Origin: Acanthopleura granulata
Taxonomy: Eukaryota; Mollusca; Polyplacophora; Chitonida; Chitonidae
DNA length: 64,000 nucleotides
NCBI GenBank assembly: GCA_016165875.1
Contig: JABBOT010000007.1
Coordinates: 15,279,441-15,343,440, forward strand
Reading direction: 5' to 3'
This document shows, piece after piece, positions 45,201 to 63,779 of the stretch (position 1 is its first letter; each line of letters begins with the position of its first letter). A program made the translations under genes and the position numbers. Below the pieces are notes generated by a model. It saw only the letters and a program-made list of their open reading frames with translations, had not been told where the DNA came from and did no database searches.

Positions 45201-48200
45201 TTGATGGAACTGCTCTTGATGACTTCCTCGCTCATGTTGCGCAATTTTACCTGTATTCAAGATTAAAAAAATTTTATGCCCTTCCAGGCTGTATGATGAA
45301 GATTGAAGTGGAAACTACAGTGAAAACATAACAGTTTTCAAGATGTTTTTGATACTAGAACGCCCTTACATTTCGGGGCCAAGAGTATGGTAGGTTACGA
45401 GACTTCTCAAAATGGCTGCCAATGGTGAGCCGTTTGAAGTTCTCACAGCCAATCTGACCACAAGACTTCCAGTTAATTAGTTTCATCAGTAAATGTAGTA
45501 AATCAAGAAGATAGGATTCAACTGGAAAATGACATAGAAATGCGCCAAAAAAGTAAGTTTAAGTGCCACTTCGAGTTCGGAGGTCTGGTGATGGATGATG
45601 GGGTTGCGGTAATTGTCAGAATTTTAAAATAATACCCGAAGTCCATGGACTATCTGTACACACAGAATTGCAAGACAGCAGATGCTTTATGCACACATTT
45701 AACTGTATTAATGTGCCTTTCTGTGTCTGTCATTGACGAAAAACAGATTCCTTGAAAATGCCATCATGATGCGATTTCCCAATCGCATTTTTTTTTGCCC
45801 GCATCAAGTGAGCCACAGCATGTTTTCACCAACTTAGCTGCAGTTACCCTTAAGGTAGATGAAATGGTTACCACACCATGCAACCAGCTATATAAACACT
45901 GATGTACTTGCTGACACAGTGAAAACGAAGAAAACATAACGTAATGTAAGTTCAACTGACGAGCAAGCTATTTTTTTGGCAGTGCCACCAGGTGCCACGA
46001 AAGTAGATTGAAACAACAACAACACGACAAATTCCACATCAGTATAACAGTAATCCGATATGTAAAAGTGATATGGTATACAGCTATAATTATTCTCTTG
46101 TGTGGAATTCTTTTGGCTTAATTATGCCGCCCTGTGATCGGAGGGGCCCTCTGTCAACGACCTAGGCTCCCGGAACCTGCTGTGATCAAACTCGCCAGTA
46201 GCACGTGAGTCACCTGACCATTAAGGTGTTGGTCCTCGGTGGTAAATCATCATAGTATGTGGTAAGGGCCTACGCGGAAGTTTGTAATGGTATTTTGACA
46301 AAAAGTTTTTTTCTTTTATTTTTCTCCATGTTTATTTTAAATCCCTATCTTTTTCAAGAGCTTGGTTTTGTCTAGGTAATACCAGACCCTTGTATTTCAG
46401 GCATGTTATCACTCTCCCACACCTGGCACACTCCTGAAACAAAATCCAGGTGTTCCAATAACACACTCCTGAAATAATGTCCAGGGAGTGTGAATCTAGG
46501 TGTGCAGATAACACTCCTGGTGTTCTGCAAGTGGTGTGGTAATCACACTCCTGCTCAGAAACAAGAACGAAGACAACGTAATACTTCCTCACCATTTGAT
46601 CATCTACTATGTCAGGTAGTTCAGGAGCTTTATTTGGTGGCCGTTTCAGTCTGACATTGCAAAGGCTAAACAGATTTGCCCGGAACGGATTCAGACACGA
46701 AGGAAGGCTCAAGACCTAGACAGCGAAATCGGTCAGATAATGAAGAGGATTACAAGCGAGGAGAAAACGTCAGTATCAAAACAGTATGACTCAGTAGGAG
46801 GAGGTGTGTCAGCCCAGAGTATGTGTTATGCACATGTTGACTCCGCATTAGTCACCTATCAGTAATGGGGCCTGTTTCATGAACAGGGTGTAAGTTGTAT
46901 CAGACAAAGGTGCCAAAAAACAAACAAACAAACAAAAAAAAAATAAATAAATAAAAAAAAAAACATTGGAGGCAGAGTACGCATGTAGGTACTGTTAATT
47001 AATAATCATGAAACACCTGACATGAAAATAGTAACAGGTGACAATGGATGTAGATGAACATTTTCTTAATCATCTGAATTTTCTCTTACTGGTTTATCCT
47101 TACTTGTGAAAATAAACAAAGATTCTAGTTCATGGCACCAGTTTAAAACTGGGACATGTCTGATAATGGTTACTGTGAAGGAAATTCTTATGGACGAGTT
47201 ACTGGTCAAGTTTATTTTTATAATTATCTTAAAATAGATAGGCTGCAGATTTAGAGAAATTAAGTACACTTCTGCATTATTTATCAGTGACGATTACTGA
47301 CTTCATTGGTTCTTGGCTTGTAATCTTCTCTGGCAAACATCTGTTGGCCATGAACAAAAGAAAACCAACTTTTATAACGAGTCAACCTGGCAAAAAATGT
47401 TTGTGTCTGGCCAAAAAAAATATTTGTTTATTGTTGTAAGCCATCTATCAAAGTTGATGAAAGATGGTCAAGAAAGAAGTCAGGAGCCGAAATTGCAAAC
47501 TACAAGCACAATCTGTGTGCCTTGAAAGTTGCTGAAGCTGGCACCATTGGACGCCAATGGGGAATAACCAGCCACACTCGGTGTGCCCACAGTCACTCTG
47601 GCTATGGTAAAGCCAAAAACAAAACGATCTAGAACCATGAAAGTAGGCAAAGTTAATTCACGAGGATTAGCAGAGACTAAGAAAACTGATCGTCATGTTT
47701 GATTTTACATGTCCCTCCACTGCCTTCTCATGTCTAAAATACCTTCTTCTCATAACTGGCACAAATTGCTCCTGTAGTATTTTGAAAATGTTCAAATTGA
47801 GTTTTGTAAAATTTTGAATATGTCTTTCCTAAACAGCATTAATTAAATAAATATAACCAGGAATTGAGTTTTTTACGCAATCGACCAACCGAATACCAAT
47901 CTGTCAGGATGACTTTTAGAAAACCCTGCATGACGACGCATATTGTAGAGATTTGTCGCCATGGCAATTACTTTTGACAAAACGTTACACCCTCTTAGTA
48001 AAGTGGGCCCCTGGATGGACCTACAGGTTTACACCATGTTTTACTTTGGGTCTGCTTAATTAGTTTTGCAGAATTTTATTGAAAAACACTCTTATTTCTG
48101 ATGAAGAACCAGGTACACTGCTTCACCATGACCAGTTTAATACGGATGGTGTTTGATTTAGTCCATTTTCAACCAGAAAATTTGTTTTGTTATTTTTGTT

Positions 48201-51200
48201 GTGGTATCTCATATGTAGCCCTCACTTTGATGGCTCAAGTGAGAAAGAAATGTCTATAAATGCTGATATTCATAATTGTTTGAATATTGGGGAAAATATG
48301 AAACACATTAGTTGGCTTGCGCAAGTTTTACTGTATAAAAATTCTTGAGTACATCATTATACACTGATAAAATAAATTGAATCAACCAGCAACAGCTGTG
48401 CATGCTCATATTTGTGATACCCTTAGGCTTATATATCCTTCAGCTGATGTAACTTGTCTGAATATGTTGGTAGCCGTGGAAACCAGGAGGAGATAACTCG
48501 AAAGTACTATGAAACCAAGAACGCCTTTGTGAAAATCCGCAGGGAGATTCAGCAGCTGAAAACATTCATCAAGGTATGGAGTTTGAATCGTTGATTGGTG
48601 TTGTAGTCTTAGAAGATGGTATTGAGTTTTTTTTAGGCTTCCAAGCTAATAGCTAATAGCTTGGAAAGCCTATTGTTATCGTACGGATTATTATTATTCT
48701 TCTTAATATTATTGTGATTGCTATTATTATTTTTCTCTGGAACACATTGTTTGGGACAGTAGGAAAACCGGAACCGCCACCCAGCTTAACAATACTAGGT
48801 CTTAGAGACTATCTATGAGAAAGTTTTCTGCATAATTTTGAACTGCCTGCGTGACCTACGTTTGCGGCCATGTTGACATCCAAAGAAAATCTTCGAACTG
48901 CATCTTCTTCAGGACGGCTTTACCAGTTGCTCCAAAAATTGGCATGCTGGTAGAATGTGATGGGGCAAATGTAAGTTGCGGTGCTCTTGTTTCTATCTGA
49001 AAAACTCTGGAAGTTTGCTGCTTTGCATATTTGTCACATGACCAAAAATATTTGAAATTGAAATACACCAATAGTGTAGGAATATTTTGTTTTAATTTAT
49101 ACTTATTACTCGCTGAATTGTAAATGTAAGAAAAACATCTGAAAAACATAACATGTATTAAATCATGTGTGTGAGACATTTGGGCTCTCTTAAAAAAGCA
49201 GACCTGTACGCTTTCGGAGTGTTATCACAAGTCTGACATTATTTCTTTTCTTCCATGTATAGTTTTCTCTTAAATTACAATCAAGTCACATCTGGATTTA
49301 TTTGGAAGTCACTTGCCAGGAAACTTGCCAGGAATTTAAAACTGCAAATTGGTATGTGCAAATGGCCTTATTTGTTCTGTCTGTGCCTAGAAGTCTCGAT
49401 TAACTGTGTTTCACAAATTCATGAGTACACATGTACAGTATAGTTAATTGCACATTAACGGCTATGAAGAATGTACGAATTTTGCTACCCAGTGAAGTTT
49501 GCCATTCTAATCACATATCTCACCTTCCTTTTTTTCTCTGATGTATAGCATTGTCGCAAACTGTAAAAAGCGCAAGTTAGGTCATATGTTCAGGTCAGGT
49601 GACAGAACAATCATACAGCTGTAAAGCTTAAAACTGGTGAGTGCACAGGCTTATAAGTGCACTGTGCCTATGTAAAAAATTTTAGCCATGCTTATAAATA
49701 TACCACTTGTAAGACCTAGAAAGACCCAATCTGCTATTTTTTGCGAACTTTCAAAGACATATGTTGTAGGCTGTATATACACTGCATTGGTCCCACCACG
49801 TTTCTCAAAATGTCGGCATTGCACAACTATTGATACAAACTTTAGAGCGTGCTGCGAATACTCTGTGTGAAGTTTGACATGTGTAAAGACGGCTTGGAAG
49901 CCTTATAACTGCAGGCAGTTCGAGTTTTTTTTTTTCTCCTATTTGACAAAACATGGAGTTTATATTTCAGTTTTTGTTTTAGTTTGCAATACTTTTGGCT
50001 ACCTACAAGAATTCTCCTTAAACAATGATGGATAAATAGTTATCTGGGTATATTGATGGATATTAATTCTTTTCCCTATGACTTCCACTGTAAGTAAACT
50101 GTTTTACCGTAATTTCTCCATAAAATGGGACACTCCATATTTGAAACATCCTGAAGTAAACCGGGAAGATCACACAGGTCTCCTGCGACGACTCACACTG
50201 GGTGCTGTTGGCCTGCCAACAAGGCTATATACATGGCCTAGACTACTGCCCAATGTAAGCTGGAAATTTATAGTCTCTATACAGTATGCCAAAAAATATT
50301 CTAAGTAGAATTGAACTCCCAGTCACACAGTGTTGGCACACGATTTCACACCCGAAGAAGTTTTCAGATGGGCTCATATTTTATGGTAAGTGCAATACTT
50401 TCCGCCTTCAACCATGTTAAATAAACCGATAAACCTCAAATTAATTATACTGGCAGTACATTAACCTCGTTGCATTTGTCAAATTTATGAACACATCATA
50501 TTATAAAACAGACCGAGGACAGGGTAATTTAGCCGAATGCTGGGATGGGCAGCTATAGTTGTTGTTATACACGGTCATAATTTTCTCCATAGTAATCCGT
50601 AGCCAGTTTTTCTTCGCCTACAGTTCACATGAAAGTGACAAGTCAAAAAGAAACAGTTACCAGTAGGTAGATGTACTCGAAGTGAAGATCACAATTGTCC
50701 AGTGATAATCCATTGCCATTTAATAACTAATCTGTCTCTGTAAGCAAAAAGTCTTGCGGTTGCTTGTTCGTCCATGCATGTATTCTGCATGTAATACACA
50801 AAAATTCAAACCCACAACTGTCATGGTAAAAGAAAAATACTTCATAACTGCATGTATTAGTTTCTTTTTTGCACAGGAACTGTATATACAAGCCTGAATT
50901 TGATAAACACTGCAAAATCCAACTTTAGGATATAGTCGAGTCTATATATTTGCAATGGAATGAACTGATACAGGTGTGCACATTTCACGCTGCCGTGCGC
51001 AGTTGCAATCTTATGCAAATTACCTGTCAATAAGTGATGGGTTGTAGGCCCTCAGTTTGCAGTGTCAGCATGGAAATCCTGCAAGCCTTTGAAAATATTT
51101 TTCTGAGGTGTTTGCTGGCGGTTATAAGAGTGAGTACAGAGCAGAAATCTGGGCATGTACACATACCAGCGTTTGAAGAGTGTGGTAACATACATCATAT

Positions 51201-54200
51201 GGCCGACATGAGACGACCAGTTCAATCAAGTCCAACGGACATGTGGTAGCCCAAGGCAGAACTTCAAAGCTTCCACGTCACCAGCCCTTCTGAGATTGTT
51301 CTGAATTTGAAAATTTGTTTTGGTATCAGATGCTTTGCATCAAGTTCCCACGGTCAGAGGCCTCCTCCACATGCATTTCTTCTTCTCTCTATTGCTGTAC
51401 AGTACAAGCTAGACGAAGGATCAGTGTACAGATTCAGTGCACATTTGATTTAAAACCGAGAAATATGCTTGTACATTGCGGTCGTCCCGTATCAAGTCGT
51501 TGACATGATATTTCACTCTCATGGAGGTATGCGTGGATTGACAAACTAGTGAAACTCAGTGAGGTGTGATGAAAGCATGGACTGTAAGTGACTGAAGACT
51601 GGTAACCTGTGTTACTCCCCACTGAGAGTTTAGGACTTAAGGCAACAGCCCTCGCAAGGCATCATGTTATACACTTGCCCAAAAAGCGTCCCATATTATG
51701 GAGTAACTACGGTATTCTAATACGTTAACCCCAGGACCATTGCCATTTGTAACTGTTATGCTGTAAGTTGTTTTGTTTTTCATTGCCATTTACACAGGGA
51801 TTTTCTAGGCACTTTCTTGTTGTCAAGAAATATCGGAAAATTGAGTATTAAACAAATTTCTTATTGATACCTTGGTGATGAAAAAATATTGAGTTTTCTG
51901 ATTTGATCATATTGAGAGTTCAAAATGAAATTGACTAGAAAATCCCTTGGTGGTCCCAGTAACTTTTATTTACATGTAGGTATGATGTGATTAATATGTT
52001 CCTCACATAAAAGTTCTGCCAGAATTTATATGTAGGTGTAAATTTGCAAACTAATTGTTGTCAGAATGTTAATCTTTTGTTTCAGTGCTTAAGAGAGTCT
52101 ATGTCTGTTCGTGTAAAAAGACACGAGATATTAAAGGCCTCAATATCCTGGAGGACTAAGTTGCATTTCCAGCATTACATATTATCCTCCCAGTTAGAGG
52201 GCAAGTTAATTATAGACCACAGTAAAGAGGAGTTAAGTCTGTGTGTAAGTTTTCCATGAGAGTAATTTGTAGCTAAGGGAGATAATGCCTACCATATGTC
52301 GGCTTGTAATCGGTTCTTCACCCTCCCAAACTTACCTCAGCAAAGTGCAAGTAAAGGCGAAATGAATGGCAGAATAAAATCAAACAGCCATAACAAATTT
52401 CAGTGGGTGGAATTTTTGCTCATGGAAATTTTCGGGACATTCACCACTTACATTTTTGGTCATTATAGCTTTCATAGAACAACAGTTATAACCCCCACAG
52501 TCAAAATACTACATCAGCCAAGCTGTACCCCCCACAGTCAAAATACTACACCAACCAAGCTGTGCTCTCCATGGTCAAAATACTACATCAACCAAGCTGT
52601 ACTCCTCACAATCATAATACTGCATCAACCAAGCTGTATTCCCCCCAGTCAAAATACTATATCAACCAAGCTGTATCCCCCACAGTCAAAATGCTACATC
52701 AACCAATCTGTACTCTCCACAGTTAATATACTACATCAACCAAGCTGTACTCCCCACAGTCAAAATACATCAACCAATCTGTACTCTCCACAGTCAAAAT
52801 ACTACATCAACCAAGCTGTACCCCCCACAGTCAAAATACTACATAAACCAAGCTATACTCCCCACAGTCAAAATACTACATCAATCAAGCTGTACTACCC
52901 ACAGTCAAAATACTGCATCAACCAAGCTGTACCCCCCACAGTCAAAATACTATATCAACCATGCTGTACTCCCCACAGTCTAAATACATCAACCAAGCTG
53001 TATCCCCCACACTCAAAATATTACATCAGCCAAGCTGTACCCTCCACAGTCAAAATACTACATCAACCAACACACATGGGTCAATCCCGTACCCTCACAA
53101 TCAAAATATGTCAGCCAATTCCTTACCCTCACAGTCAAAACACATGGGTCAATCCCATACCCTCACAGTCAAAATATGTCAGCCGATTCTTTACCCTCAC
53201 AGTCGAAACACATGGGTCAATCCCCTACCCTCACAGTCAAAATATGTCAGCCAATTCCTTACCCTCACAGTCAAAACACATGGGTCAATACCCTACCCTC
53301 TGTCAAAGTACACGTGTCAATCCCTTACCCTCACAATTAAAATACATCTATAAATCACTTACTTCTCAATATCACATATACAAGGCAATAAGTTATCCCC
53401 TGTTCAAAATATGCCAACTAATATAGACTCATCCTCACAATCGAAGTGCAAAAATGTACAAGATCTAGTATAGGTTACAAAACTGCACAGTAATAATGGT
53501 GAAAACTGCTTGCCATTTCACCAATCGCTGGACAACATGTGGAGTTGTGTATTAAACTATCCATGTGATACCAACCAAAGTAAGGTCTTGTTGCGATTAA
53601 TCCCGTGCACCTGCTGCTGTAGGTTTGTGAAGGGACATAACCGTGAACGGGCCCTCCTTCACTGGCTATGCATGTGTGTTGTGTCTCTATTTTGCTGACT
53701 CTCTTGTCTGTTTCAGCGGTTAGAAGTCGTGATGATACACCGCCAGAAACAGTACTTTGAACTGCGGCGTATGATCGCCATGAGGACAAAATATTTCTTC
53801 ATTGTGATGTTGTCCAATAGGCAGTACACTGGCAAAATTAGCTTTAATCATGCAAAGGAAACTCTTGAGATGTCTGTAAGTGTGGAGTGGGGTTATCTGC
53901 CCATTTGTGAGTGGCATTATGCGTGGATGTGTGGTTTTTGTTGTGTTGTGAAGGAGGGGATGTGGGGTGTGGGCATGGTTGTCATTCTTTTTAAAGGGAA
54001 GGGATGGGTTAGGGCCTGTCCTTTGGCAGAATTAAGACCTCCCATCTTTTCCTGATATCTGCTGTCACCCAATTTTCACAGTGTAATTGTCAGAATAAGA
54101 GATTTATAAACTTGACTTTAGCTAACCTGGAACTTGGTTATGTTTAGTGCACTTTCCTCACAGGGGTCAATGATGTGCGCCACAAAAACAGGTTTGCCTT

Positions 54201-57200
54201 GAGTTTGAAGAAATTTGGAGTTCATATATCCTGATTTTTCGTTAGTGATAACGACTACACCTGTCATCACCATGTGGACAAGTGTAACGAAAACATGGTA
54301 TGACAGCTGTGATTTGAGAATCAGTTGACCAGATTGCACCAGTTGGCATCCTGGAAAGAAAAGTATATTAAAGGGCTGCATTGCAGTAACGACTGGGTTC
54401 CAGGTTAGTAAGTGCAAAGATTCAGAGCAGTAAATGATACTGCAAAGCTGGGAAGCTGAATGATCTCAAGACTTCATCCAACAGCTACATTGGTATGATT
54501 TGGTGATGGTGGTTAGACAGTAAAGCACAGAAGCCATATGAAAATTTCTGTTGGTTTCCGCTAATTTCGTTTTCATTACTCGTGTTCAAGAACAAATCAT
54601 TAAAACTTCATCTACGAGTACAAGAGAGGAAATATTTGCTGTATGTTAGGCTATTGTTAACCCCCTGCTGATTTCCTCATTGTTAACACTAGACGAACAC
54701 AGTTTCTTAGTCTGTCTATAGCCGTATGGTTTTGCCACTGAGGGTCTACTACAAGTAGGGTTGAGAATATGACTTAATCGAGACTGCATCTAGTTTATCC
54801 ATGCTCTACATAGGCTTGTATTTCAGTGTGAATTCCCTTTAGGCCTTTGCATGTATTAAAGTTTCATCAGAAACATTGTTCAAGAGTCTCTTTTGATCGT
54901 GGCTTGTGGTTGCTTGTTGTTATTGTACTGTGTCCTGTTATTCTGTGGTTATTCTCTGCTGTTGGAATTCTTTGATGCTTTTTTTCAAGCTGATCTGAAT
55001 GTGTATGTGTTTGTGAATGTACCATAGTAATATTTGTTGGTAGCTGTTCCTCCACACCTTGTCTTGTATGTTTTTGCCGCACACTCTATACTTGTGGCAT
55101 GATGTGATTAAACCCCTGTTGTGTACACATAACTTTCATGAATTTTTATTTCATTAAATGTCTTAAATCAGCACGTACATATGTGTTCAGAAGAAAATTA
55201 ACTTTGGCACAAGGAAAGATAATTCTTTACTCTCGTGCTACTCAACTTTTATTTCTTAGATGATTGAAATTAATTAAACCCTTAATTTAGCATATGTTGT
55301 CATAGGTACGCAGCTGTAATCTAGAGTTTAAAAAAAAAAGCAACAATTAGTTGATCTGCTAAATCTGGTCTCATTGCATGACATTTATAGTTTGACATTG
55401 TTTATTCAACGTCCTGCTTGTCCCTTAGGTTCAGCCTAATAACTCGGAGGCAGAGAACCCCCGAGTGCCGGGATCAAAGGACATGCGGTCCCTGTCGGGA
55501 GGCGAGCGCTCTTTTGCCACGGTCTGTTTCATCCTGGCCCTCTGGGACGCCATGGAGTCGCCCTTCAGGTGTCTGGACGAGTTTGATGTATTCATGGTGA
55601 GTATGAGGTTTATGCGTTAATGGGGAATATGAGGTTGATGTGTTAATGGTGAGTATGAGTTTGATGTAGTCATGGTGAATGTGTGGTTGATGTGTTTGTG
55701 GAGAGGATGCAGCTCATGGTGAGTCTGAGCTTGATGTGTTTATGGTGAGTCCAGGATTGATCTGTTTATGGTAAGTATGCAGCTGATACATCTGTGGTGA
55801 CAATAAAGGTGTTGTGTGCATGGTGAGAATGAGGTTGATGTGTTTATGGTGAGTGTCAGGTGTGTGGTAGGTATGAGGTTGCTATGCCCATGGTGAGTAT
55901 GAGATCGATGTGCGTTTGTGGTTAGCATGAGGATGTGTTCACTTTGAGTATGTCTAAACATTAACCTATAAAGTGATTTTTTAGGCAAAAATAGATGAAA
56001 ATTAGCCCTTTCAATAAGTAATGCACTCGCAGGGATCAGAAGCTTGCTGTGCAACACCTAGATTAGGGCCTTACGTTATCTACCACTCCACTTTAGACAT
56101 ATGTGATATTGTTGTCACTGACAAACATATGGCATGAAGGTGTATAGTAGTTGCAGCCAAGGCTGAGATTGTATGGGGGGGGGGGGGAAGGGTAATCAGG
56201 GTGTACACGTAGCTGTACTGTATCCCTCTCACTCCCATCATATCAGTCACTGTGACACAGGGGCTGTGGGTTCAATCCTGGCCCTTGACGGGGAACGTGT
56301 ACAGTTCCCCAGTTTCGCAGTTCATGTAGTCTTTGTAACAGTAAGTGGTTGACAATACTCATATGCTGTTTGACTGTGCAGAAATTTGTAGAACTTTTCT
56401 TCCACCAGTATGGTGTGCATATTTGTGTGGCATACGTGGAAAGTTGCCACTGTGTCACACTTGGGGGAAGTTGCCACTGTGGCACACTTGGGAAAGTTGC
56501 CACTGTGGCACACATGGGAAAGTTGCCACCGTGGCCCATGGGAAAGTTGCCACTGTGTACTGTGCGTCAGTAACTTCCCAAAGGTCGGTGGTTTACACCA
56601 TGCACGCCACGTATACAACTGACAGTCATTGTGTAAGTGGAGAGAATCTTGAGTATGACAACGAACAACAATCAAATAAATGAATAAATCTCTTCCCCAT
56701 CCCCAGGACATGGTGAACCGCCGGATCAGTATGGACATGATGATGGAAGTGGCCAGTGCTCAGACAGGTCGACAGTTTATCTTCCTCACCCCACAGGACA
56801 TGAGGTAAGTCCCTCAAGTTTGATGTTTTCTTGGGTGACATACGGTGTACTGTCTGATAGTGGGTTGGTTCATGGAGGTGGAATACAGGAGTTTTTGAGT
56901 TCAAACTCTTTCATCGCTGAAGGTAAAAGAAGTTCTACCGTACACTGACCATGTGACCCATCAGAAATGTTAGGCAGTTATCAGAGGCTCATTACAGAGA
57001 CATGAAAAAGTGTGGAGAAATTTACAGAAGTAGTTTCACTGAAGTACTTATTGTCAGTGCATTTAATGAAATATATTGTTGGTTAGGGTCAAGTATCAGC
57101 TTCTTTCGCTGATGTTTTCTTCATTGTTTTGTTGGGATTTATGTGCAGTGATTATGTCTGGAGTAGTGCTTTCATTTATTATCCTTTTAGTTTTATGTCC

Positions 57201-59626
57201 GGAAAGGTCAACGAATGCTCTTGCGCTATTTTGACGATGGTAACGGTAAATGTCACATACCCATTGGTACACGGTAAATGTAGGGAAAAGATTTACATCA
57301 TGTAAGATAGCCTGCATGAATGTATTTAACAGTTCCTAATTGTATTTAGGCCTACCTTGCAGCAGTCAAGCGCTTGGGTAGTCGTTAAAATGGTGGAAGT
57401 TAGTTATCATATTCATACGGCGGGTATGTCATTTGACCTGGCCACTTGGGTTACTGCCCAAGAATAACCGACTGGACTAGAGTAAAAACTGGAATTGAGG
57501 GGATGGTAGTCTATCGAGATGGATTCAGGGTGTTATTTTAAAATTCTGACATTCTTCACAACCCTGAGTCCATCAACCGTACTCCAAAAAATGGCAGCAA
57601 ATCTCTGAGCTTTAAGATGGATCTGCTTTCGCTGTTCGTGTTCGTGTCACGTATTTGACCTTGACCCCTTGGGTTACTGCCGAAGAATATATAACAGACA
57701 GGTACCTTACCTGTGCAAATTTCCAGGCAGTGTACAAGTCACACAGGAAGTGTTGCTCGCGGTTGGAAAACATGCAAGTTTTGTCAATCAAGAAGATTAA
57801 ATCAAATCACACGAAATAAAGTATTGTCATCTATATGATAAACACAGGATATAGCATAGAGGCAAAAGTGTGTGAAAATGAGGATTTTGCAGTGAGAAAA
57901 TCAAAGGTACTAGCATTCTCTTTCACAAGAGCGAAACAACAACCTATATTACTTTTTTATTTTCTAATCAACTTTAGTAGGCGGCAGTTCTGCCGTCCAC
58001 AGCCATTGAAAATTGCCACCTGCTGACTACTGATGAACACCTTGATGTGCATAAACTTTTGTTTCTTAGGTTACGTAGGTTAATCTGTCATAATTTTCAA
58101 GCATGTGCAGCTTTGTGGACAGTCTTATTCAGTATTGAAAGAAATGTGTTGCCCATTTTCATTTGATTTTAAATGTTGAGTGCTAGAGAACTATGTGATT
58201 TTCGGTTCATTTATTCATTTATTTGATTGGTGTTTTGCAATGTACTTGAGAATATTTTACTTATACGACGGTGGCCAGCATTATGAGGGGAGGAAACCGA
58301 ACACAGCGTCAGCAAAACCCACGACCATCTGCAGGTTGCTGGATTTTCAGTTTAGTGTACATGAATATGCTACTAATGCCTCTTCCTCATCCTCACATAT
58401 TAGGTGTCTTGATTCAAATTAGCAATTTTAACATACGAAATAACTGTTAACTCTGATGTTGAATGATGGATCTGTAAACTTTTTCAAAATTTTACTTCGT
58501 TTCATTAGAGAGTAATATCTGTACACATGCATTTCATATGAGTGTACTACATCTGTTGATCAGTTGTTTTCTATGGGGTTTTGAGGATTTCCATAATATT
58601 GGTGTTAGCAGTTGAGTGATTCTGTGCAAGGTCTCCAATCAGCTGACAATCCTCAAACCACAATCAAGTGGTGACCGTTTTCAGTTGAGAAAAAACATTT
58701 AGCTGATGCCCCTCATCAGTTACAAGCAGTGGTGGTATATCTGAAGGGTCCAAGGCCTCCAGCCAGCATCAGGCCGAAAATTTTGCCCAACACAAAAATT
58801 TATAGCAAACATGTGCTGTATTATGATGTGTTGCCTTGATCGATTGCCACGTTCAGCAGTGGTACAAATAATGAAGATATTTTGGACTTAGTTTGTGCTC
58901 ACACTAACCAAACAAATAGAAGTGGTAAGGACTTAATTGCAGAATTTTGTTAGGGAAAATGTCTTCAGCCTTACCGCAGATCACAATATGACGTTCTAGT
59001 GTAATGCATTCTCTTTAAACTAATGTCATGAACTGGGGAAGAAAAGATTGATATAAAATTGTGCAGAGTACTGCTGCTGGGCCTTCCATTATAGATAGGC
59101 ACATTGTGCGTGGAGAAGACTAACAGATTTTACTGGAAAGCAACTGTTCACTTGTTACGAGAAGAATGAAATTAGAAGAAGGGCAATAGACCCATTTCGC
59201 AGCCTTTTGGCTCTAGTTTAATTACATACACTTAGAAAAGGAGAAAGTTTTAAGTAGATGAAAAATGATAAGCTGGGCATTTGTGAACTTTTACAGATCA
59301 AGTGACAAAACAATGATGCTGTCCAATTAGTGGTTGATCTTTGATATATCGCTCCTGAAAAAAAAAAAAAAAAGAAAAAACTTGTAAATGTCACTTCGAA
59401 AAATCTTGAAATGTGAATGAGGACAAATTCATGAATCCTTTTAATACATAAGTGTAGTATTTATCTTTATCTCCTTCATTTTTGGATGGTATTTTTTTTT
59501 TGTTATTTTTTCTTCAGCCAACTACACTCTACAACTAATTTACGAATCTACCGTATGCCTGACCCAGACAAGTGTCAAGGTGATCAGGCAGTTGAGAAGT
59601 CATCCCAGGAGGAGGACGAGGATTAA
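14861..59626 (+). CDS. SMC6: Structural maintenance of chromosomes protein 6, complete, 26 coding exons plus one alternative exon
   Basis: Exons: 14861-14989, 17934-18048, 18770-18875, 20384-20520, 21127-21269, 21990-22091, 23850-23987, 24436-24516, 28212-28358, 29000-29088, 32418-32582, 33337-33515, 34022-34197, 34660-34686, 35176-35259, 35685-35771, 37352-37621, 38735-38791, 42389-42559, 44079-44216, 46650-46768, 48474-48573, 53717-53875 (alternative 52086-52244), 55429-55596, 56707-56804, 59518-59626. All are phase-consistent and give 1097 residues, close to the roughly 1090 usual for animals. Walker A GRNGSGKS is at 78-85, the Q-loop NQD at 192-194, coiled coil at about 210-460, hinge about 470-700, second coiled coil to about 900, signature LSGGE at 995-999, Walker [11 protein letters not shown] at 1021-1030. 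SMC6 pairs with SMC5 and the NSE subunits in the nuclear SMC5/6 ATPase, which acts in recombinational repair, replication-fork stability and silencing of extrachromosomal DNA. The start is fixed by an in-frame TAG at 14843-14845. A piggyBac element lies in intron 8. Confidence 0.96.
14990..16150. other. SMC6: SMC6 intron 1, 5' part
   Basis: No gene seen. Holds the AT microsatellite at 15268-15332 and otherwise unremarkable AT-rich sequence. Confidence 0.6.
15268..15332. repeat. (AT)n microsatellite, imperfect
   Basis: Two runs of TATATATA joined by GTATATATAAATATACA, forming a nearly self-complementary stretch. Confidence 0.95.
16151..16407 (+). mobile_element. SINE copy, full length, plus orientation
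   Basis: Head TTGTTCAGTCGGTTAACGCG (box A-like) and GAATTCAAGTC (decayed box B), then the conserved body GGCCGTACGTGGGAAGG and GGATGGTCGTGGGTTTCC, and an A-rich tail. Sits in SMC6 intron 1. Confidence 0.85.
16408..17933. other. SMC6: SMC6 intron 1, 3' part
   Basis: No recognised element. Overlapping open frames at 16502-17068 in different frames show no family resemblance and are probably chance. Confidence 0.5.
17934..18048 (+). CDS. SMC6: SMC6 exon 2 (residues 44-82, start of ATPase head)
   Basis: Encodes [15 protein letters not shown], the conserved first strand of SMC6 heads, to VIGRNG; the Walker A loop is split by intron 2. Acceptor TGTTACAG, donor GTATGT. Confidence 0.95.
18049..18769. 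other. SMC6: SMC6 intron 2 with an unexplained open stretch
   Basis: 18074-18367 is open for 97 codons on the plus strand, and 18109-18339 is open for 76 codons on the minus strand. GC is higher than in the flanks. I recognise neither translation. Confidence 0.4.
18770..18875 (+). CDS. SMC6: SMC6 exon 3 (residues 82-117, Walker A)
   Basis: Completes GRNGSGKS with the nucleotide-binding K84, then [14 protein letters not shown] and [11 protein letters not shown]. Acceptor TTGTTTCAG, donor GTATGC. Confidence 0.95.
18904..18945 (-). mobile_element. SINE tail fragment
   Basis: TTGATCGGTGTTTTACACCG followed by ATTGCACTTGAG: only the 3' end of the SINE is left, 28 nt after SMC6 exon 3. Confidence 0.5.
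19047..19113 (+). mobile_element. SINE 3' fragment
   Basis: TTTCCTCCCGCAATAATGCT to AAATATTCTTGAATACGGC: the 3' part of the SINE. Confidence 0.65.
19114..20383. other. SMC6: SMC6 intron 3, nothing recognised
   Basis: No gene or repeat unit identified. A poly-T tract precedes the exon 4 acceptor. Confidence 0.5.
20384..20520 (+). CDS. SMC6: SMC6 exon 4 (residues 117-163)
   Basis: Encodes [14 protein letters not shown] and [19 protein letters not shown], the head's beta-sheet. Acceptor TTTTTTTCCAG, donor GTATTA. Confidence 0.95.
20571..20747. mobile_element. MITE of the same family, copy 2 (degenerate)
   Basis: Interior AAAAAAGTGCAGTTTTAGAGG and GTCATAAAATATTATATTTG, ending GATGAAATTTTAGGTAGTTT. 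The left end is eroded. It lies directly after SMC6 exon 4. Confidence 0.55.
20840..21047. mobile_element. MITE of the same family, copy 3 (good ends)
   Basis: Left end TTACTGCAAATGACC; right end GGTCATTTAGGGTAA, its near-perfect inverse. No coding capacity. It ends 79 nt before SMC6 exon 5. Confidence 0.7.
21127..21269 (+). CDS. SMC6: SMC6 exon 5 (residues 163-210, Q-loop)
   Basis: Encodes [21 protein letters not shown]193 is the Q-loop glutamine of SMC heads. Ends [12 protein letters not shown]. Acceptor GATTGACAG, donor GTAAAC. Confidence 0.95.
21643..21763. repeat. Short tandem repeat, about 22 bp
   Basis: Four to five units around TTTTGCCAGTCCAAATTAAA, just upstream of the exon 6 acceptor minisatellite. 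Confidence 0.7.
21778..21989 (+). repeat. Minisatellite of about 34 bp ending exactly at the SMC6 exon 6 acceptor
   Basis: Six units of the type CTGGTTGTACAGTGTGTGTA + ATTGTTCTCTAAGA. The last unit ends TTCTCTCCTTGGCAG, the functional acceptor. Confidence 0.85.
21990..22091 (+). CDS. SMC6: SMC6 exon 6 (residues 211-244)
   Basis: Encodes [15 protein letters not shown], where the coiled coil begins. Acceptor CCTTGGCAG, donor GTTAGT. The acceptor is the last unit of a minisatellite. Confidence 0.94.
22198..22375 (+). mobile_element. SINE copy, diverged, plus orientation
   Basis: CAGCAACCTGTGGATGGTCA, GTGCTGGCCACCGTCATACA and GTATGGCTTAAAACAC, tail CATAAATGAATA. Lies 107 nt after SMC6 exon 6. 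Confidence 0.7.
22376..23447. other. SMC6: SMC6 intron 6, no gene
   Basis: Contains a duplicated word (AAACATTTTCTTTCATGGGT at about 22696 and 23305), suggesting a further diverged repeat. Otherwise nothing recognised. Confidence 0.5.
23448..23709. mobile_element. MITE of the same family, copy 4 (degenerate)
   Basis: Contains AATGACTTAAAATTTCACCC, GAAAAGTGCAGTTTAAGAGG and CAAAACTCTCAGAACC, as in the other copies. The right terminus is AAATTTGAGGTCGTGTA. Confidence 0.5.
23850..23987 (+). CDS. SMC6: SMC6 exon 7 (residues 245-290, coiled coil)
   Basis: Contains [15 protein letters not shown], a conserved SMC6 landmark. Acceptor TCATTGCAG, donor GTGTGT (weak). Confidence 0.92.
24436..24516 (+). 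CDS. SMC6: SMC6 exon 8 (residues 291-317, coiled coil)
   Basis: Encodes [18 protein letters not shown] and then KVTEAG, phase 0-0. Acceptor TATTTTAG, donor GTAAGT. The next intron carries the piggyBac. Confidence 0.9.
24849..24953 (+). mobile_element. SINE 3' fragment, interrupted by the piggyBac element
   Basis: GGGCTATGGGTTTCC, GTGCTGGCTATCATCG, GCGTAAAGCACCAGTC and an AAATA-type tail that runs straight into the TTAA target of the piggyBac insertion. Confidence 0.65.
24958..24972 (+). repeat. piggyBac left terminal inverted repeat
   Basis: CCCTTTCGCTGCCGA directly after TTAA; perfect inverse of 27996-28010. Confidence 0.95.
25213..27324 (+). CDS. piggyBac transposase (PGBD4-like), 703 codons, intact
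   Basis: Catalyses cut-and-paste transposition at TTAA. Residues 1-100 are acidic ([16 protein letters not shown] and more Asp/Glu). About 125-150 is an RG-rich stretch ([19 protein letters not shown]), unusual in length and possibly nucleic-acid binding. The DDE_Tnp_1_7 core runs from about 205 to 600, with the three catalytic aspartates in conserved contexts: D359 ([13 protein letters not shown]), D433 (LFCDNLYTS) and D558 (GGVDKSDQ). The C-terminal cysteine-rich domain (662-698) has CNVC, CKQC, C687, C693 and H698. There are no stops or frameshifts, and the family length is normal (about 550-700). It is a single exon, as usual for the family. A domesticated gene is possible, but intact ends and TTAA flanks point to a mobile element. 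Confidence 0.96.
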   Translation: MARKLTVSEVIDELDLAYDSDSGPEFEGNSDTDDTADDNLDISENLGSDYGDFGNNLADCDGTEDGGMPVDIGDTDTGGGGDNANRGIEGNNFHSLANVSNGIQVSLPQTPVPTVARDRGSDRVNGGLGRGRNVRGRGRGGRGRGRGNGTRDVNEMEPEIGGRCPNNWVRIDTPDVDSGPTYTPDTSWCPQFMQSGQYGGGFLKTDMTGKEPVDFFHSFFPPEIYTHVAEQTNSYALQYFDDPSLELLPNSRLWEWCETNPGEIRAFIALEMAMGLCRKPALSSYFEKYWLTPTPAFGTVMSRNRYQLLLSFLHMNDNVDRIPKGQVGYDPLYKVRPIISMVKDKYVKLYQPQREISVDEAMLGFKGKLGIKQYMQDKPTKWGVKLWSLCDSNNGFMLKWNVCVGAGEGSVSEIVKRLLEPDFYDKGYYLFCDNLYTSADLFFELKDRATGACGTLRSNRIGNPVSITPHVRGARNDATARYPRPVLKKGDDPMFFTKNGMLCLYWQDNGTVRLLTSVHGNDVISKEIRKRGQGAGEGRIVHKPQAVVQYNKYMGGVDKSDQLRAYYSFERKTRKWYQVIWHFAIEIALMNGLICYNLANPDKQMQSHKFRQKVIDSLLEGQRNFYREEKKQMRVQNKHPLARLTGRHFQAEYADKKYRPDCNVCSDRNVRRVQTTFYCKQCNVPLCKPSKNCFERYHTVLNY
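27996..28010 (-). repeat. piggyBac right terminal inverted repeat
   Basis: TCGGCAGCGAAAGGG directly before TTAA. Confidence 0.95.
28212..28358 (+). CDS. SMC6: SMC6 exon 9 (residues 318-366, coiled coil)
   Basis: Heptad-like charged sequence [19 protein letters not shown] to [10 protein letters not shown]. Acceptor TTGTTTGCAG, donor GTAAGG. Confidence 0.92.
29000..29088 (+). CDS. SMC6: SMC6 exon 10 (residues 367-396, coiled coil)
   Basis: Encodes [17 protein letters not shown] and ERIEEIRN. Acceptor GTTTTCAG, donor GTAAAT. Confidence 0.9.
29245..29312 (+). mobile_element. SINE 3' fragment
   Basis: TTGTATAAGTGAAAAGCTCT and CATAAAGCATCAATCAAATA: tail portion only. Confidence 0.5.
29313..30747. 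other. SMC6: SMC6 intron 10, 5' part, nothing recognised
   Basis: AT-rich, no repeat unit or coding stretch I can support. Confidence 0.5.
30748..30990 (+). mobile_element. SINE copy, full length, with box A and box B
   Basis: The clearest head in the window: GGCCTCAGTCGGTTAGCGAG (box A-like) and GAGTTCGAGCCCAG (box B), then the body and a (TCAAA)n tail. Shows that the family is tRNA-derived. Confidence 0.9.
31285..31555 (+). repeat. Minisatellite of 32-34 bp in SMC6 intron 10, first block
   Basis: Diverged units of GACAGTGAATCATGACC + TCTGTGTCTGTTTTAG. Separated from the second block by about 340 bp of unrelated sequence. Confidence 0.8.
31893..32417 (+). repeat. Minisatellite of 32-34 bp ending exactly at the SMC6 exon 11 acceptor
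   Basis: About 15 units alternating two types (AACAGTGAATCATGAC.. and GGGACAGTATCATGAC..), each ending CTGTGTCTGTTTTAG. The last ends CTGTGTCTGTTTCAG, the real acceptor. Most units therefore carry a pyrimidine-AG splice-acceptor look-alike. Confidence 0.9.
32418..32582 (+). CDS. SMC6: SMC6 exon 11 (residues 396-451, coiled coil)
   Basis: Encodes [19 protein letters not shown] and [12 protein letters not shown]. Acceptor TCTGTTTCAG, which is the last unit of a long minisatellite; donor GTGCTC. Confidence 0.9.
33337..33515 (+). CDS. SMC6: SMC6 exon 12 (residues 451-511, hinge entry)
   Basis: Encodes [20 protein letters not shown] and [10 protein letters not shown], matching the conserved LKRFG..VP and GP.G of SMC6 hinges. 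Acceptor TGCGACAG, donor GTAAGG. Confidence 0.95.
34022..34197 (+). CDS. SMC6: SMC6 exon 13 (residues 511-569, hinge)
   Basis: Encodes [20 protein letters not shown] and [10 protein letters not shown], typical of SMC6 hinges. Acceptor GGTGACAG, donor GTCAGT. Confidence 0.95.
34660..34686 (+). CDS. SMC6: SMC6 exon 14, 27-nt micro-exon (residues 570-578)
   Basis: Encodes NQMHDVSKY, phase 0-0, after a strong polypyrimidine tract and TTTTTTGCAG; donor GTGAGT. The position matches the EIYDV segment of vertebrate SMC6. Confidence 0.85.
34957..35092 (+). mobile_element. SINE 3' half
   Basis: CAGCAACCTGCGAATGG, TTTCCTCCCACCATAATGCT, GTTGTATAAGTG, tail (AAATA)n. Ends 84 nt before SMC6 exon 15. Confidence 0.75.
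35176..35259 (+). CDS. SMC6: SMC6 exon 15 (residues 579-606, hinge)
   Basis: Encodes [20 protein letters not shown], matching the VLTALEI..VVANSLID segment of the family. Acceptor GTTTGACAG, donor GTAACC. Confidence 0.94.
35685..35771 (+). CDS. SMC6: SMC6 exon 16 (residues 607-635, hinge)
   Basis: Encodes [19 protein letters not shown], a strongly conserved hinge strand. Acceptor GCTTTGCAG, donor GTACAT. Confidence 0.95.
36211..36330. repeat. Short tandem repeat, about 17 bp
   Basis: Seven to eight units of CTGCTCATGGTACAAT in SMC6 intron 16. Confidence 0.85.
36401..36487 (-). mobile_element. SINE 3' fragment, minus orientation
   Basis: TTTGATTGGTTGTTTACATG, ACTCAAGAATGTTTCACTTA, GCATTATGGTGGGAGGAAAC. 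Confidence 0.7.
36786..37273. mobile_element. Longer member of the TTACCCTAAATGACC family (about 490 bp)
   Basis: Left end TTACCCAAAATAACCTAAAA; right end TTTAGGTCATTTAGGGTA: inverted and about 17/19 matched. The right interior (GTAAGAATCAGCACCAAAAA, ACATTTTTGGGGGCAAG) is shared with 7432-7655. It ends 78 nt before SMC6 exon 17. Confidence 0.6.
37352..37621 (+). CDS. SMC6: SMC6 exon 17 (residues 636-725, hinge exit and coiled coil)
   Basis: Begins [19 protein letters not shown], matching AFTADGDQV of SMC6, then the descending coiled coil. The longest coding exon (270 nt). Acceptor CATTTTCAG, donor GTGAGT. Confidence 0.95.
37892..38144 (-). mobile_element. SINE copy, full length, minus orientation
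   Basis: Runs from the TTATTTATTTGATTG tail to the head GCTAGCGCACTAATCGACGG; 271 nt after SMC6 exon 17. Confidence 0.85.
38520..38690 (+). mobile_element. SINE copy, diverged, plus orientation
   Basis: GTTCCTCGTGAGTTCAGTCC, CACATGGGAAGGTCTGCC, TGCCATAATGTTGGTCGTCG. Ends 45 nt before SMC6 exon 18. Confidence 0.65.
38735..38791 (+). CDS. SMC6: SMC6 exon 18 (residues 726-744)
   Basis: Encodes [19 protein letters not shown]; the DVATL end matches vertebrate DIATLEDE. Acceptor TTTGACAG, donor GTGAGT. A long foldback element begins 11 nt after the donor. Confidence 0.92.
38803..39282. mobile_element. Long foldback MITE flanked by TTAA (about 480 bp)
   Basis: TTAA, then TAGGAATGACCAAAC at the left; GTGTGGTCTTTCCTT and TTAA at the right, near-inverse. 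The inverted arms extend to about 165 bp each (TGTATGGTGGATTTTATGGA at about 38918 against TCCTTAAAATCCACCATACA at about 39133), around a loop of roughly 130 bp. No coding capacity. The ends differ from those of the resident piggyBac. Confidence 0.8.
39283..42388. other. SMC6: SMC6 intron 18, 3' part, nothing recognised
   Basis: Three kilobases of AT-rich sequence without a supported gene or repeat unit. Poly-A and poly-T runs near 39898, 39960 and 41384. Confidence 0.5.
42389..42559 (+). CDS. SMC6: SMC6 exon 19 (residues 745-801, coiled coil)
   Basis: Encodes [19 protein letters not shown] to [11 protein letters not shown]. Acceptor TTTTACAG, donor GTGAGG. Confidence 0.93.
43005..43960 (+). 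repeat. Tandem repeat, unit about 150 bp, in SMC6 intron 19
   Basis: About six diverged units with the words GTCTGTCTGTC, TTAACTTTTC, GATTTCAGTGAAACTTGG, GTGTAGACTACA and AAGATACATAATTCG. Same family as 2609-3040. Open frames on this stretch are by-products. Confidence 0.75.
44079..44216 (+). CDS. SMC6: SMC6 exon 20 (residues 802-847, coiled coil)
   Basis: Encodes [20 protein letters not shown] and [12 protein letters not shown], matching vertebrate KRHYEEKQKEHLD. Acceptor ACGTACAG, donor GTAACT. Confidence 0.92.
44217..46394. other. SMC6: SMC6 intron 20 with unexplained open stretches
   Basis: On the minus strand 44226-44582 and 44626-44982 are each open for 118 codons. On the plus strand about 45100-45330 reads like a broken frame with several stops. 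None resembles a family I know; it may be a decayed element. A word around 45600-45640 (GTCAGAATTTTAAAATAA) recurs inverted near 57530. Confidence 0.35.
46395..46560 (+). repeat. CACACCTG-type dispersed repeat, copy 3
   Basis: Best preserved copy: CTCCCACACCTGGCACACTC, TCCAGGTGTTCC, GTGTGAATCTAGGTGTGC. It sits about 90 nt before the SMC6 exon 21 acceptor. Confidence 0.65.
46650..46768 (+). CDS. SMC6: SMC6 exon 21 (residues 848-887)
   Basis: Contains [11 protein letters not shown], a hallmark of SMC6 near the C-terminal neck. Acceptor CCGTTTCAG, donor GTCAGT. Confidence 0.94.
46769..48473. other. SMC6: SMC6 intron 21, nothing recognised
   Basis: AT-rich with a poly-A stretch at 46915-46965. 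No coding or repeat structure I can support. Confidence 0.5.
48474..48573 (+). CDS. SMC6: SMC6 exon 22 (residues 887-920)
   Basis: Encodes [19 protein letters not shown] and QQLKTFIK, returning to the head. Acceptor TTGGTAG, donor GTATGG, phase 0 at its end. Both exon 23 versions can follow it. Confidence 0.93.
48635..49903. mobile_element. Putative DNA transposon or MITE with 12-bp perfect inverted ends (1.27 kb)
   Basis: Left end AGGCTTCCAAGC, right end GCTTGGAAGCCT. The left end is followed by a second inverted word, making a terminal hairpin (AGCTAATAGCTAATAGCTTGG), then GTACGGATTATTATTATTC. No transposase is seen, so it would be non-autonomous. Target duplication not clear. In SMC6 intron 22. 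Confidence 0.55.
49904..52085. other. SMC6: SMC6 intron 22, 3' part
   Basis: Checked for further copies of exon 23; none seen. Open frames at 50078-50308 and 51034-51249 have no resemblance to it or to known families. Confidence 0.5.
52086..52244 (+). CDS. SMC6: SMC6 alternative exon 23a (53 codons)
   Basis: Exactly 159 nt, phase 0-0, acceptor TTTTGTTTCAG and consensus donor GTAAGT. Encodes [16 protein letters not shown] to [17 protein letters not shown]. It aligns without gaps to exon 23b (16 of 53 identical: L2, M6, R9, K11, I20, RTK 23-25, F28, Q36, GK 39-40, H45, KE 47-48, L50). Open throughout. It is less like the vertebrate segment, as I recall it, than 23b is. Either a mutually exclusive exon or a decaying duplicate; the unbroken frame and splice sites favour use. 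Confidence 0.8.
52488..53420 (+). repeat. Minisatellite of about 37 bp between SMC6 exons 23a and 23b
   Basis: About 25 units in two subtypes: CCCCACAGTCAAAATACTAC + ATCAACCAAGCTGTA (52488-53070) and CACAGTCAAAACACATGGGT + CAATCCC (53070-53340). Nearly every unit has CCCACAG or CTCACAG, a weak splice-acceptor look-alike. The 376-codon open frame over it is a by-product. Confidence 0.92.
53717..53875 (+). CDS. SMC6: SMC6 exon 23b, canonical version (residues 921-973)
   Basis: Encodes [19 protein letters not shown] to [17 protein letters not shown]. By memory about 23 of 53 positions match human SMC6 without gaps. It packs in the C-terminal ATPase lobe just before the signature motif. Acceptor TCTGTTTCAG, donor GTAAGT. 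Confidence 0.92.
53876..55428. other. SMC6: SMC6 intron 23, nothing recognised
   Basis: No third exon 23 copy, no repeat unit, no supported coding sequence. Confidence 0.5.
55429..55596 (+). CDS. SMC6: SMC6 exon 24 (residues 974-1029, signature motif and Walker B)
   Basis: Contains [18 protein letters not shown] (ABC signature) and [11 protein letters not shown] with catalytic D1023-E1024. Acceptor TCCCTTAG, donor GTGAGT. Its last 18 nt and donor form the first unit of a minisatellite. Confidence 0.96.
55579..55935 (+). repeat. Minisatellite of 26 bp starting in SMC6 exon 24 and copying its donor
   Basis: About 14 units of GAGTTTGATGTGTTTATGGT + GAGTAT. The first unit is the end of exon 24 (encoding EFDVFM of Walker B) plus its donor; later units keep ATGGTGAGT in at least six copies. 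Confidence 0.9.
56433..56563. repeat. Short tandem repeat, about 26 bp
   Basis: Five units of GAAAGTTGCCACTGTGGCAC + ACTTGG, inside a region with a tRNA-like GTGGGTTCAATCC at 56267. Confidence 0.9.
56707..56804 (+). CDS. SMC6: SMC6 exon 25 (residues 1030-1062)
   Basis: Encodes [16 protein letters not shown] and [11 protein letters not shown], the strand after Walker B. Acceptor CATCCCCAG, donor GTAAGT. Confidence 0.95.
56805..58210. other. SMC6: SMC6 intron 25, 5' part
   Basis: No gene. Around 57530-57590 it shares, in inverse, sequence with 45580-45655, so a dispersed repeat is present. Confidence 0.45.
58211..58342 (-). mobile_element. SINE 3' half, minus orientation
   Basis: ATTTGATTGGTGTTTTGCAA, ACTTATACGACGGTGGCC, GACCATCTGCAGGTTGCTGG, then stops abruptly. 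Confidence 0.75.
58343..59517. other. SMC6: SMC6 intron 25, 3' part, nothing recognised
   Basis: AT-rich; poly-A at 59359-59374 and a polypyrimidine tract before exon 26. Confidence 0.5.
59518..59626 (+). CDS. SMC6: SMC6 exon 26 (residues 1062-1097 and stop)
   Basis: Encodes [14 protein letters not shown] and an acidic tail QEEDED, as in the family, then TAA. Acceptor TTTCTTCAG. It is 2.7 kb from exon 25. Confidence 0.93.
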
Positions 59627-63267: not shown

Positions 63268-63779
63268 TCAGGAATTCCCATCACTTGAGATCATTTTATA
63301 CACCCTTTCCACTAAATGTGGCAAGTTTTGTCTGAACAGGCGATCAGTGCTTAAGTCCATGAAAGAGACCTTGGCCAGGATTTTGCGCACCTGTGGCGGA
63401 GCGCCCTCTGTTGGTGAGAAGCGGAGCAGGACGGGCAAGATGGGTTTGTTAAGGCTGTCGGCCAGGGACAGATCCTTAGCACAACTGTCACTCTGCAGGT
63501 ACTTGGGAGTGACGCAGCTCAGAACCAGACAGGCGGTCTTCATGCTACGCTGGATCTGGCCCTGCAGTGACTCACTATGTGTGTCCAGGTGCGAGAGAGA
63601 GCTGCGACAGCTCATGCTGCTGTGGCCGCGCTGCGTCATCTGGATGTCTGCCCAGCACGAGAAGCCGTACTTTTCCAGGGTCTGCTTGATCTCTTCCACA
63701 CGGTCTTGCATGTCCCACTGGTAGCTGATGAACACCTTGGGGTCGTCGTCCGATGACCACAGCGGTATGTCTGCCGGAA
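63268..63779 (-). CDS. TIR-domain protein, last exon (partial gene)
   Basis: The terminal exon begins after TTTTTAAG at 63780 and ends at TGA 63270-63268. It encodes PLWSSDDDPKVFISYQWDMQ, helix 1 and EKYGFSCWADIQ, then LVLSCVTPKYLQSDSCAKDL, KPILPVLLRFSP and a final helix ending MISSDGNS. This order is a TIR fold: VFISY is box 1, CWADIQ strand C, LVLS..Y the loop before the conserved CxxE helix, and PILPVLL strand E. Family members act as immune adaptors or NAD-cleaving enzymes. At the position of the glutamate used by SARM1-type enzymes this protein has aspartate (SCAKDLSLA). It is most like invertebrate multi-domain proteins carrying a C-terminal TIR. Upstream exons lie beyond 64000, so the full architecture is unknown. 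Confidence 0.88.

Follow-up and report, generated by a model that had tools for sequence, protein, structure and literature searches.

A tandem pair of homologous exons, probably used as alternative cassettes, in the SMC6 gene of the chiton Acanthopleura granulata

Results

The SMC6 locus

The window analyzed here, that is, the whole stretch of 64,000 nucleotides from Acanthopleura granulata, contained an SMC6 gene (Table 1). Human SMC6, which served as the tblastn query, gave matches that formed a collinear exon series along the plus strand, and 21 coding exons could be placed with GT-AG borders, besides the two exons (23a and 23b) that are the focus of this study. No position could be assigned to the 5′ end or to two of the internal exons, one between 23987 and 28212 and the other between 34197 and 35685, and the three blocks between the unplaced exons were each in frame and lacked internal stops. 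Identification as SMC6 came from the collinear family match and the presence of both the signature motif and Walker B. The best solved relative was human SMC6 (9lwi_A), against which the C-terminal part scored 184.6 bits with 23a and 205.5 bits with 23b, and the closest database proteins, among the best 120 of 1971 relatives, were SMC6 from the molluscs Gigantopelta aegis (53%) and Haliotis asinina (54%). The constant exons flanking the pair were exon 22, which ended at AAG/gtatgg with a translation terminating in ...KTFIK, and exon 24, the acceptor of which read cttag/GTTCAG.

Several other features were noted in the same region. An SMC6 intron harbored an intact-looking piggyBac element with 19-nt terminal inverted repeats that were 100% complementary, TTAA at both ends, and an open reading frame (ORF) of 703 aa with DDE_Tnp_1_7 and zf-Tnp_2 domains; its insertion is possibly recent. 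Tandem repeat units took up a large part of the intron that separates 23a from 23b. Elsewhere in the window were a satellite-like tandem array with repetitive ORFs on both strands, and a 155-aa ORF containing a TIR_2 domain (E 2.9e-15) that is perhaps part of an innate-immunity gene adjoining SMC6.

Table 1. Features of the SMC6 region, in window coordinates
Feature	Position	Strand	Basis or remark
Satellite-like tandem array	4009..5055		
SMC6 gene, coding part found	17934..59626	+	tblastn with human SMC6, in-frame check, stop codon
piggyBac element	24954..28014		
piggyBac ORF	25213..27324	+	
Exon 22 (constant, upstream)	48474..48573	+	start is the sole one in phase with exon 21
Exon 23a (a-type alternative version)	52086..52244	+	sequence comparison, splice sites, profiles
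Intron between 23a and 23b	52245..53716	+	1472 nt
Tandem repeat units of 37 nt and 68/34 nt	52493..53347		
Exon 23b (canonical version)	53717..53875	+	sequence comparison, splice sites, profiles
Exon 24 (constant, downstream)	55429..55596	+	signature motif LSGGER; LDEFD (Walker B region)
ORF with TIR_2 domain	63268..63735	minus	

Exons 23a and 23b are a homologous pair

The coordinates, length (159 nt each), phase (0-0), open frames, AG acceptors, and GTAAGT donors that the initial annotation had given for 23a and 23b were all confirmed. Its alignment of the two translations also held for every residue it had named as shared, although the count of identities over the 53 residues was 17 rather than the 16 it gave. 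The two are thus neighboring internal exons of equal length and phase, 1472 nt apart, with compatible splice sites and homologous protein sequence.

Both exons aligned to residues 918-970 of human SMC6, and to no other part of the gene, with 16 identities to the human protein for 23a and 23 for 23b. None of 200,000 residue shuffles reached either the identity or the BLOSUM62 score of any of the three comparisons (23a-23b, 23a-human, and 23b-human). At the 23 columns in which 23b equaled the human residue, 23a agreed at 12, while in the other 30 columns it matched 23b at five and human at four. At the nucleotide level, 23a and 23b were identical at 21 of 53 first, 25 of 53 second, and 15 of 53 third codon positions; the third positions appear saturated, yet the protein can still be recognized, suggesting an old duplication with constraint acting on the protein.

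The similarity was specific to these two exons. Among 19 open segments of the form AG-159 nt-GT on the plus strand between 17934 and 60000, only 23b (+113) and 23a (+67) scored above zero against human SMC6, the next best reaching -21, and across the entire window the minus strand offered 24 such open segments, the best of which scored -26. Frames of 159 nt drawn from SMC6 introns were open in 282 of 4829 samples (5.8%). Chance similarity, or an unrelated open frame, was ruled out by the shuffle test together with this segment scan, and a second haplotype left in the assembly was rejected because no more than 61 of the 159 nt of 23a and 23b were identical. A search for a third copy in the rest of the window, run with 36 exon-23 segments, gave no match with an E-value below 0.03.

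Splice sites and exclusivity

When the 379 AGs between exons 22 and 24 were ranked with a matrix built from the other acceptors of the gene, the acceptor of 23b came first and that of 23a eighth. The AG-free stretch ahead of the acceptor was 82 nt for 23b and 19 nt for 23a. Given an in-frame AG located 21 nt upstream of the 23a acceptor, use of which would add seven residues, the exact start of 23a in Table 1 is tentative. Both donors were perfect on the intron side and weak on the exon side (TGT, TCT), with scores of 2.5 and 2.6 bits, as compared to 1.5-10.5 bits for the 20 other placed donors (leave-one-out).

We found no exclusion mechanism within the window. The frame between exons 22 and 24 is kept with 23a, 23b, both, or neither, such that removal of double inclusion by a frame shift is unsupported, as are steric blocking, considering the 1472-nt intervening intron, and a splice-class mismatch, considering that both exons are GT-AG with GTAAGT. 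Nor is a far-upstream branch point of the kind outlined for OGDH (PMC7969005) suggested by the 82 AG-free nucleotides before 23b. A repeat search of the introns exposed six pairs of arms that were 72-85% complementary, and competing intron pairings were at shuffle level, the longest exact complementarity being matched by 37-62 of 100 shuffles and the 11-mer counts by 29-62 of 100.

Counterparts of exon 23a in other molluscs

The whole-protein search returned 1971 SMC6 relatives at E <= 1e-20, and we scanned the best 120 of these with profiles of the a-type (23a-like) and b-type (23b-like) segments. The scan assigned 113 proteins to the b-type, a count that includes the undecided Lineus and Babylonia sequences discussed below, four to the a-type only, two to an a-type directly followed by a b-type, and one to neither; the six a-type carriers were those from which the a profile was built, and their own scores in the scan are therefore not independent. 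The a-only proteins among these 120 were from Haliotis rufescens (isoform X1), Crassostrea virginica (X1), C. gigas (X1), and Mercenaria mercenaria (X2), and hence span gastropods and bivalves, while those with both segments, in the same order as in the window, were from Mytilus californianus (X4) and Pinctada imbricata (P0009). The database was clustered at 90% identity, which largely hides sister isoforms behind one representative, so that the number of a-type species given here is a minimum. The a-type proteins encountered were annotated gene models, with none seen in a transcript-sized contig; the sequences are public, and automatic annotation already lists the a-type among numbered isoforms.

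The window itself was left out of the a profile, and 23a scored higher with this profile than with the b profile (46.1 vs 33.7 bits), whereas 23b was the reverse (37.0 vs 99.9 bits). In leave-one-out tests, five of the six a-types preferred the a profile, and the Mytilus segment preferred the b profile (36.9 vs 42.0 bits). With tblastn, five of the six a-type segments matched 23a at E < 10, in all cases better than 23b, which two of these five also matched at a lower score. The best were the segments from Mytilus (1.8e-7) and Mercenaria (6.5e-7), while the Haliotis a segment had no match in the window at E < 10. Conversely, all 23 b-type segments scored best at 23b, as did five undecided or other segments, including that of Lineus. 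A directed search with seven a-like segments recovered seven proteins at E <= 1, two of them undecided (Lineus and Babylonia) and all already present in the whole-protein list, and a protein search aimed at 23a-plus-23b words gave 24 candidates, none at E <= 0.001.

The initial annotation's proposal that 23a is a real variant of an SMC6 exon is borne out by these relatives, in which the exon is neither absent nor broken: database proteins from four molluscs carry its counterpart in place of the canonical segment. The mutually exclusive use that it had put forward as a candidate may not be strict, as two of the 120 proteins, the gene models Mytilus californianus X4 and Pinctada P0009, contain both versions. 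With double inclusion modeled in Mytilus X4, we refer to the pair as alternative cassettes, which would mostly be used one or the other but not strictly so.

Some further proteins deserve mention. The segment of isoform X2 from the nemertean Lineus longissimus (P0028) scored 46.5 bits with the a profile and 50.1 with the b profile and was placed with the a-types by the tree, and that of X2 from the caenogastropod Babylonia areolata (P0033) scored 21.1 and 36.7 bits and was placed among the b-types; both segments are divergent and match neither type closely, and these isoforms may represent further alternative versions. Pinctada imbricata had two SMC6 models on different contigs, P0009 with both segments and P0015 with the b-type only, reflecting either an additional SMC6 copy or an artifact of the assembly.

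Origin and divergence of the a-type

We pursued the history of the exon using a tree of 36 segments, in which the six a-types, 23a, and Lineus were split from the rest with an ultrafast bootstrap of 93. The profile and tblastn scores place 23a closer to a-type than to b-type segments, with moderate support from the tree. A separate duplication in every lineage was rejected (AU test, p = 0.001). The most distinct change common to the a-types was at segment position 43, which was F in all 24 b-types and I or V in all six a-types and 23a (Lineus having F), and a preceded b in all three cases where order was visible (the window, Mytilus, and Pinctada). The pattern of kept and lost consensus residues in 23a agreed with that of the a-types at 12 of 15 columns, which is suggestive only (Fisher p = 0.09), and the human and Limulus b-types matched the same pattern at 10 of 15. 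The simplest, though tentative, account is a single duplication before the gastropod-bivalve split.

A point that counts against it is the divergence of the a-types from each other. Across six lineages, five of whose b-types were stand-ins (from a congener, another copy of the gene, or a related genus), mean identity was 30% among a-types, barely above the 27% between a- and b-types, as compared to 70% among b-types. The a exons of C. gigas and C. virginica were nevertheless identical at 50 of 55 residues (985 of 1102 for the whole protein), and thus the a-type diverges fast across lineages yet is not visibly decaying within one.

This low identity among a-types is also what would be expected had the second exon arisen by separate duplications in several mollusc lineages, followed by convergence, the alternative that survives best. 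The AU test did not reject joining 23a with 23b, that is, a separate origin of the exon in the window (p = 0.246), or joining the Haliotis a segment with gastropod b segments (p = 0.086), and independent origins have been reported for the mutually exclusive exons of mrp-1 (PMC7434440). The rejection of a separate origin in every lineage, the bootstrap value, position 43, and the shared a-b order all argue the other way, and we regard several origins as rather unlikely. Such a history would be compatible with use of both exons, and its likelihood overlaps with that of the explanation we prefer, an old tandem duplication retained in molluscs.

Structural context of the segment

In predicted structures, the exon 23 segment formed the end of the long C-terminal helix plus a two-strand hairpin ahead of the signature helix. 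In the Haliotis a-type the helix extended to 958, followed by strands at 962-969 and 974-981, and in the Haliotis b-type to 956, followed by strands at 960-967 and 972-979. The two folds agreed over the segment (pLDDT block means of 75-86 and 81-89), an agreement that is partly built in, as both models share one alignment, and that indicates compatibility rather than proof.

The initial annotation had anticipated effects on ATP hydrolysis or partner binding. By alignment and predicted fold, the former now appears less likely and a change in the neck and partner coupling likelier, since the exon covers the end of the coiled-coil neck and the beta-hairpin and not Walker A, the signature motif, or Walker B. 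In Schizosaccharomyces pombe, Nse4 binding specifically requires Smc6 residues L965, L972, and R975, and L964, L968, and E969 have an effect on stability as well (PMC7297730). Judged by spacing, residue 965 would correspond to the I of FIK at the end of exon 22, and 968, 972, and 975 to L2, M6, and R9 of exon 23. These three residues were present in both 23a and 23b, and R9 was found in all eight a-side segments (the six a-types, 23a, and Lineus) and in the 24 b segments tabulated. In yeast, the head contacts DNA through the N-lobe (PMC9191643), outside of exon 23, and Nse5/6 opens the Smc6-Nse4 neck gate (PMC10191858). With the Nse4-contact residues kept, DNA contacts elsewhere, and gate opening by Nse5/6, both forms would be expected to retain binding of the kleisin Nse4 and to differ in the gate or in neck-head coupling.

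Discussion

Collectively, the explanation we consider probable is an ancient tandem duplication of SMC6 exon 23 that was kept in molluscs, where the two copies are used as alternative cassettes. Splicing would join exon 22 to exon 24 via one of the two, with 23b giving the canonical protein and 23a giving an Smc6 with a divergent, faster-evolving neck helix (approximately the last 34 coiled-coil residues entering the head) and beta-hairpin. Molluscs thus probably make two forms of Smc6, a DNA-repair motor protein that is otherwise highly uniform. In A. granulata, both exons would be used, usually singly, and both products would adopt a common fold in this module and retain binding of the Nse4 kleisin. 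The likeliest effect would be an altered response of the neck gate, at the Smc6-Nse4 contact, and of the head to ATP or to a loader of the Nse5/6 type, in preference to a change of the ATP site itself.

An alternative in which 23a is an optional extra cassette, transcripts containing either b or a plus b (a 53-residue insertion) and a-only forms being rare or mis-modeled, is in keeping with the a-then-b arrangement of Mytilus californianus X4 and Pinctada P0009 and with the in-frame double inclusion possible in the window. At least three genera nevertheless supply a total of four models that have a in the absence of b (one from Haliotis, two from Crassostrea, and one from Mercenaria), and a repeated helix end and hairpin inside the head would presumably be hard to fold, making this alternative improbable. 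That 23a is a relic no longer used in A. granulata would suit its long branch (1.0 vs 0.08 for 23b) and its acceptor, which is poorer than that of 23b, but the exon has no stop, its exact length, and intact splice sites, and retains the family-wide invariant L2, R9, R23, K25, F28, G39, K40, and H45 despite saturated third positions, such that we consider disuse very unlikely. Finally, it is hardly credible that the a-only proteins derive from a separate paralogous SMC6 gene rather than from alternative splicing: the two Pinctada imbricata models on different contigs indicate that extra copies occur, yet a single gene holds both exons in the window, in Mytilus californianus, and in Pinctada P0009, and the names of the a-only proteins label them as isoform X1 or X2 of a gene.

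Returning to the favored reading of alternative cassettes from an old duplication, alternative SMC complexes are known through subunit paralogues, and we know of none that arise via splicing of the ATPase head. The initial annotation's statement that an alternative head exon in SMC6 had not been described agrees with our search of the open-licence literature, partly judged by title, in which no alternative, mutually exclusive, or tandem-duplicated SMC6 exon was described; an oyster study in that literature places smc6 in a gastrula germ-cell cluster. If the cassettes are used as we propose, molluscs would naturally supply two Smc6 variants with the rest of the protein unchanged, through which to probe the roles of the neck-head junction in loading, in loop extrusion, and in the silencing of extrachromosomal DNA. 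The annotation of SMC6 in cultured shellfish would be corrected, and a gene described by one reference isoform would be seen to be capable of hiding an old second form. More speculatively, and with considerable doubt on our part, molluscs and perhaps other spiralians might possess two Smc5/6 complexes that are alike except for an exchangeable Smc6 neck-head module and predate the gastropod-bivalve split. The fast-evolving a-form would then be a specialized complex whose neck gate is altered and whose role might lie, for instance, in germ cells or in defense against viral or extrachromosomal DNA.

With respect to known systems, the proposed difference connects to the neck gate of yeast Smc5/6 (PMC7297730, PMC10191858, PMC9191643), in that exon 23 spans, by spacing, S. 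pombe Smc6 L968, L972, and R975; those accounts, as far as they bear on the neck, deal with one neck per species and no splice variants. The pair also resembles mutually exclusive tandem-duplicated exons (PMC9741552) in that two adjacent, homologous internal exons share their length and phase, with one-or-other isoforms in relatives. It differs in that one-or-other use in SMC6 is suggested by gene models, two of which join both exons, and in that SMC6 is an SMC ATPase; the string SMC is absent from the main text of PMC9741552. Another parallel is exons 6a and 6e of coq-2 in helminths, annelids, and molluscs (PMC7434440), likewise a lineage-restricted second exon version that is common to molluscs, hosts such as human having one. 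As presented in that source, the coq-2 pair is supported by RNA-seq and by mutants and is tied to a known switch of product, whereas the SMC6 pair is known here from sequence. Moreover, two highlighted residues distinguish the coq-2 forms across species, while the SMC6 a-type diverges widely.
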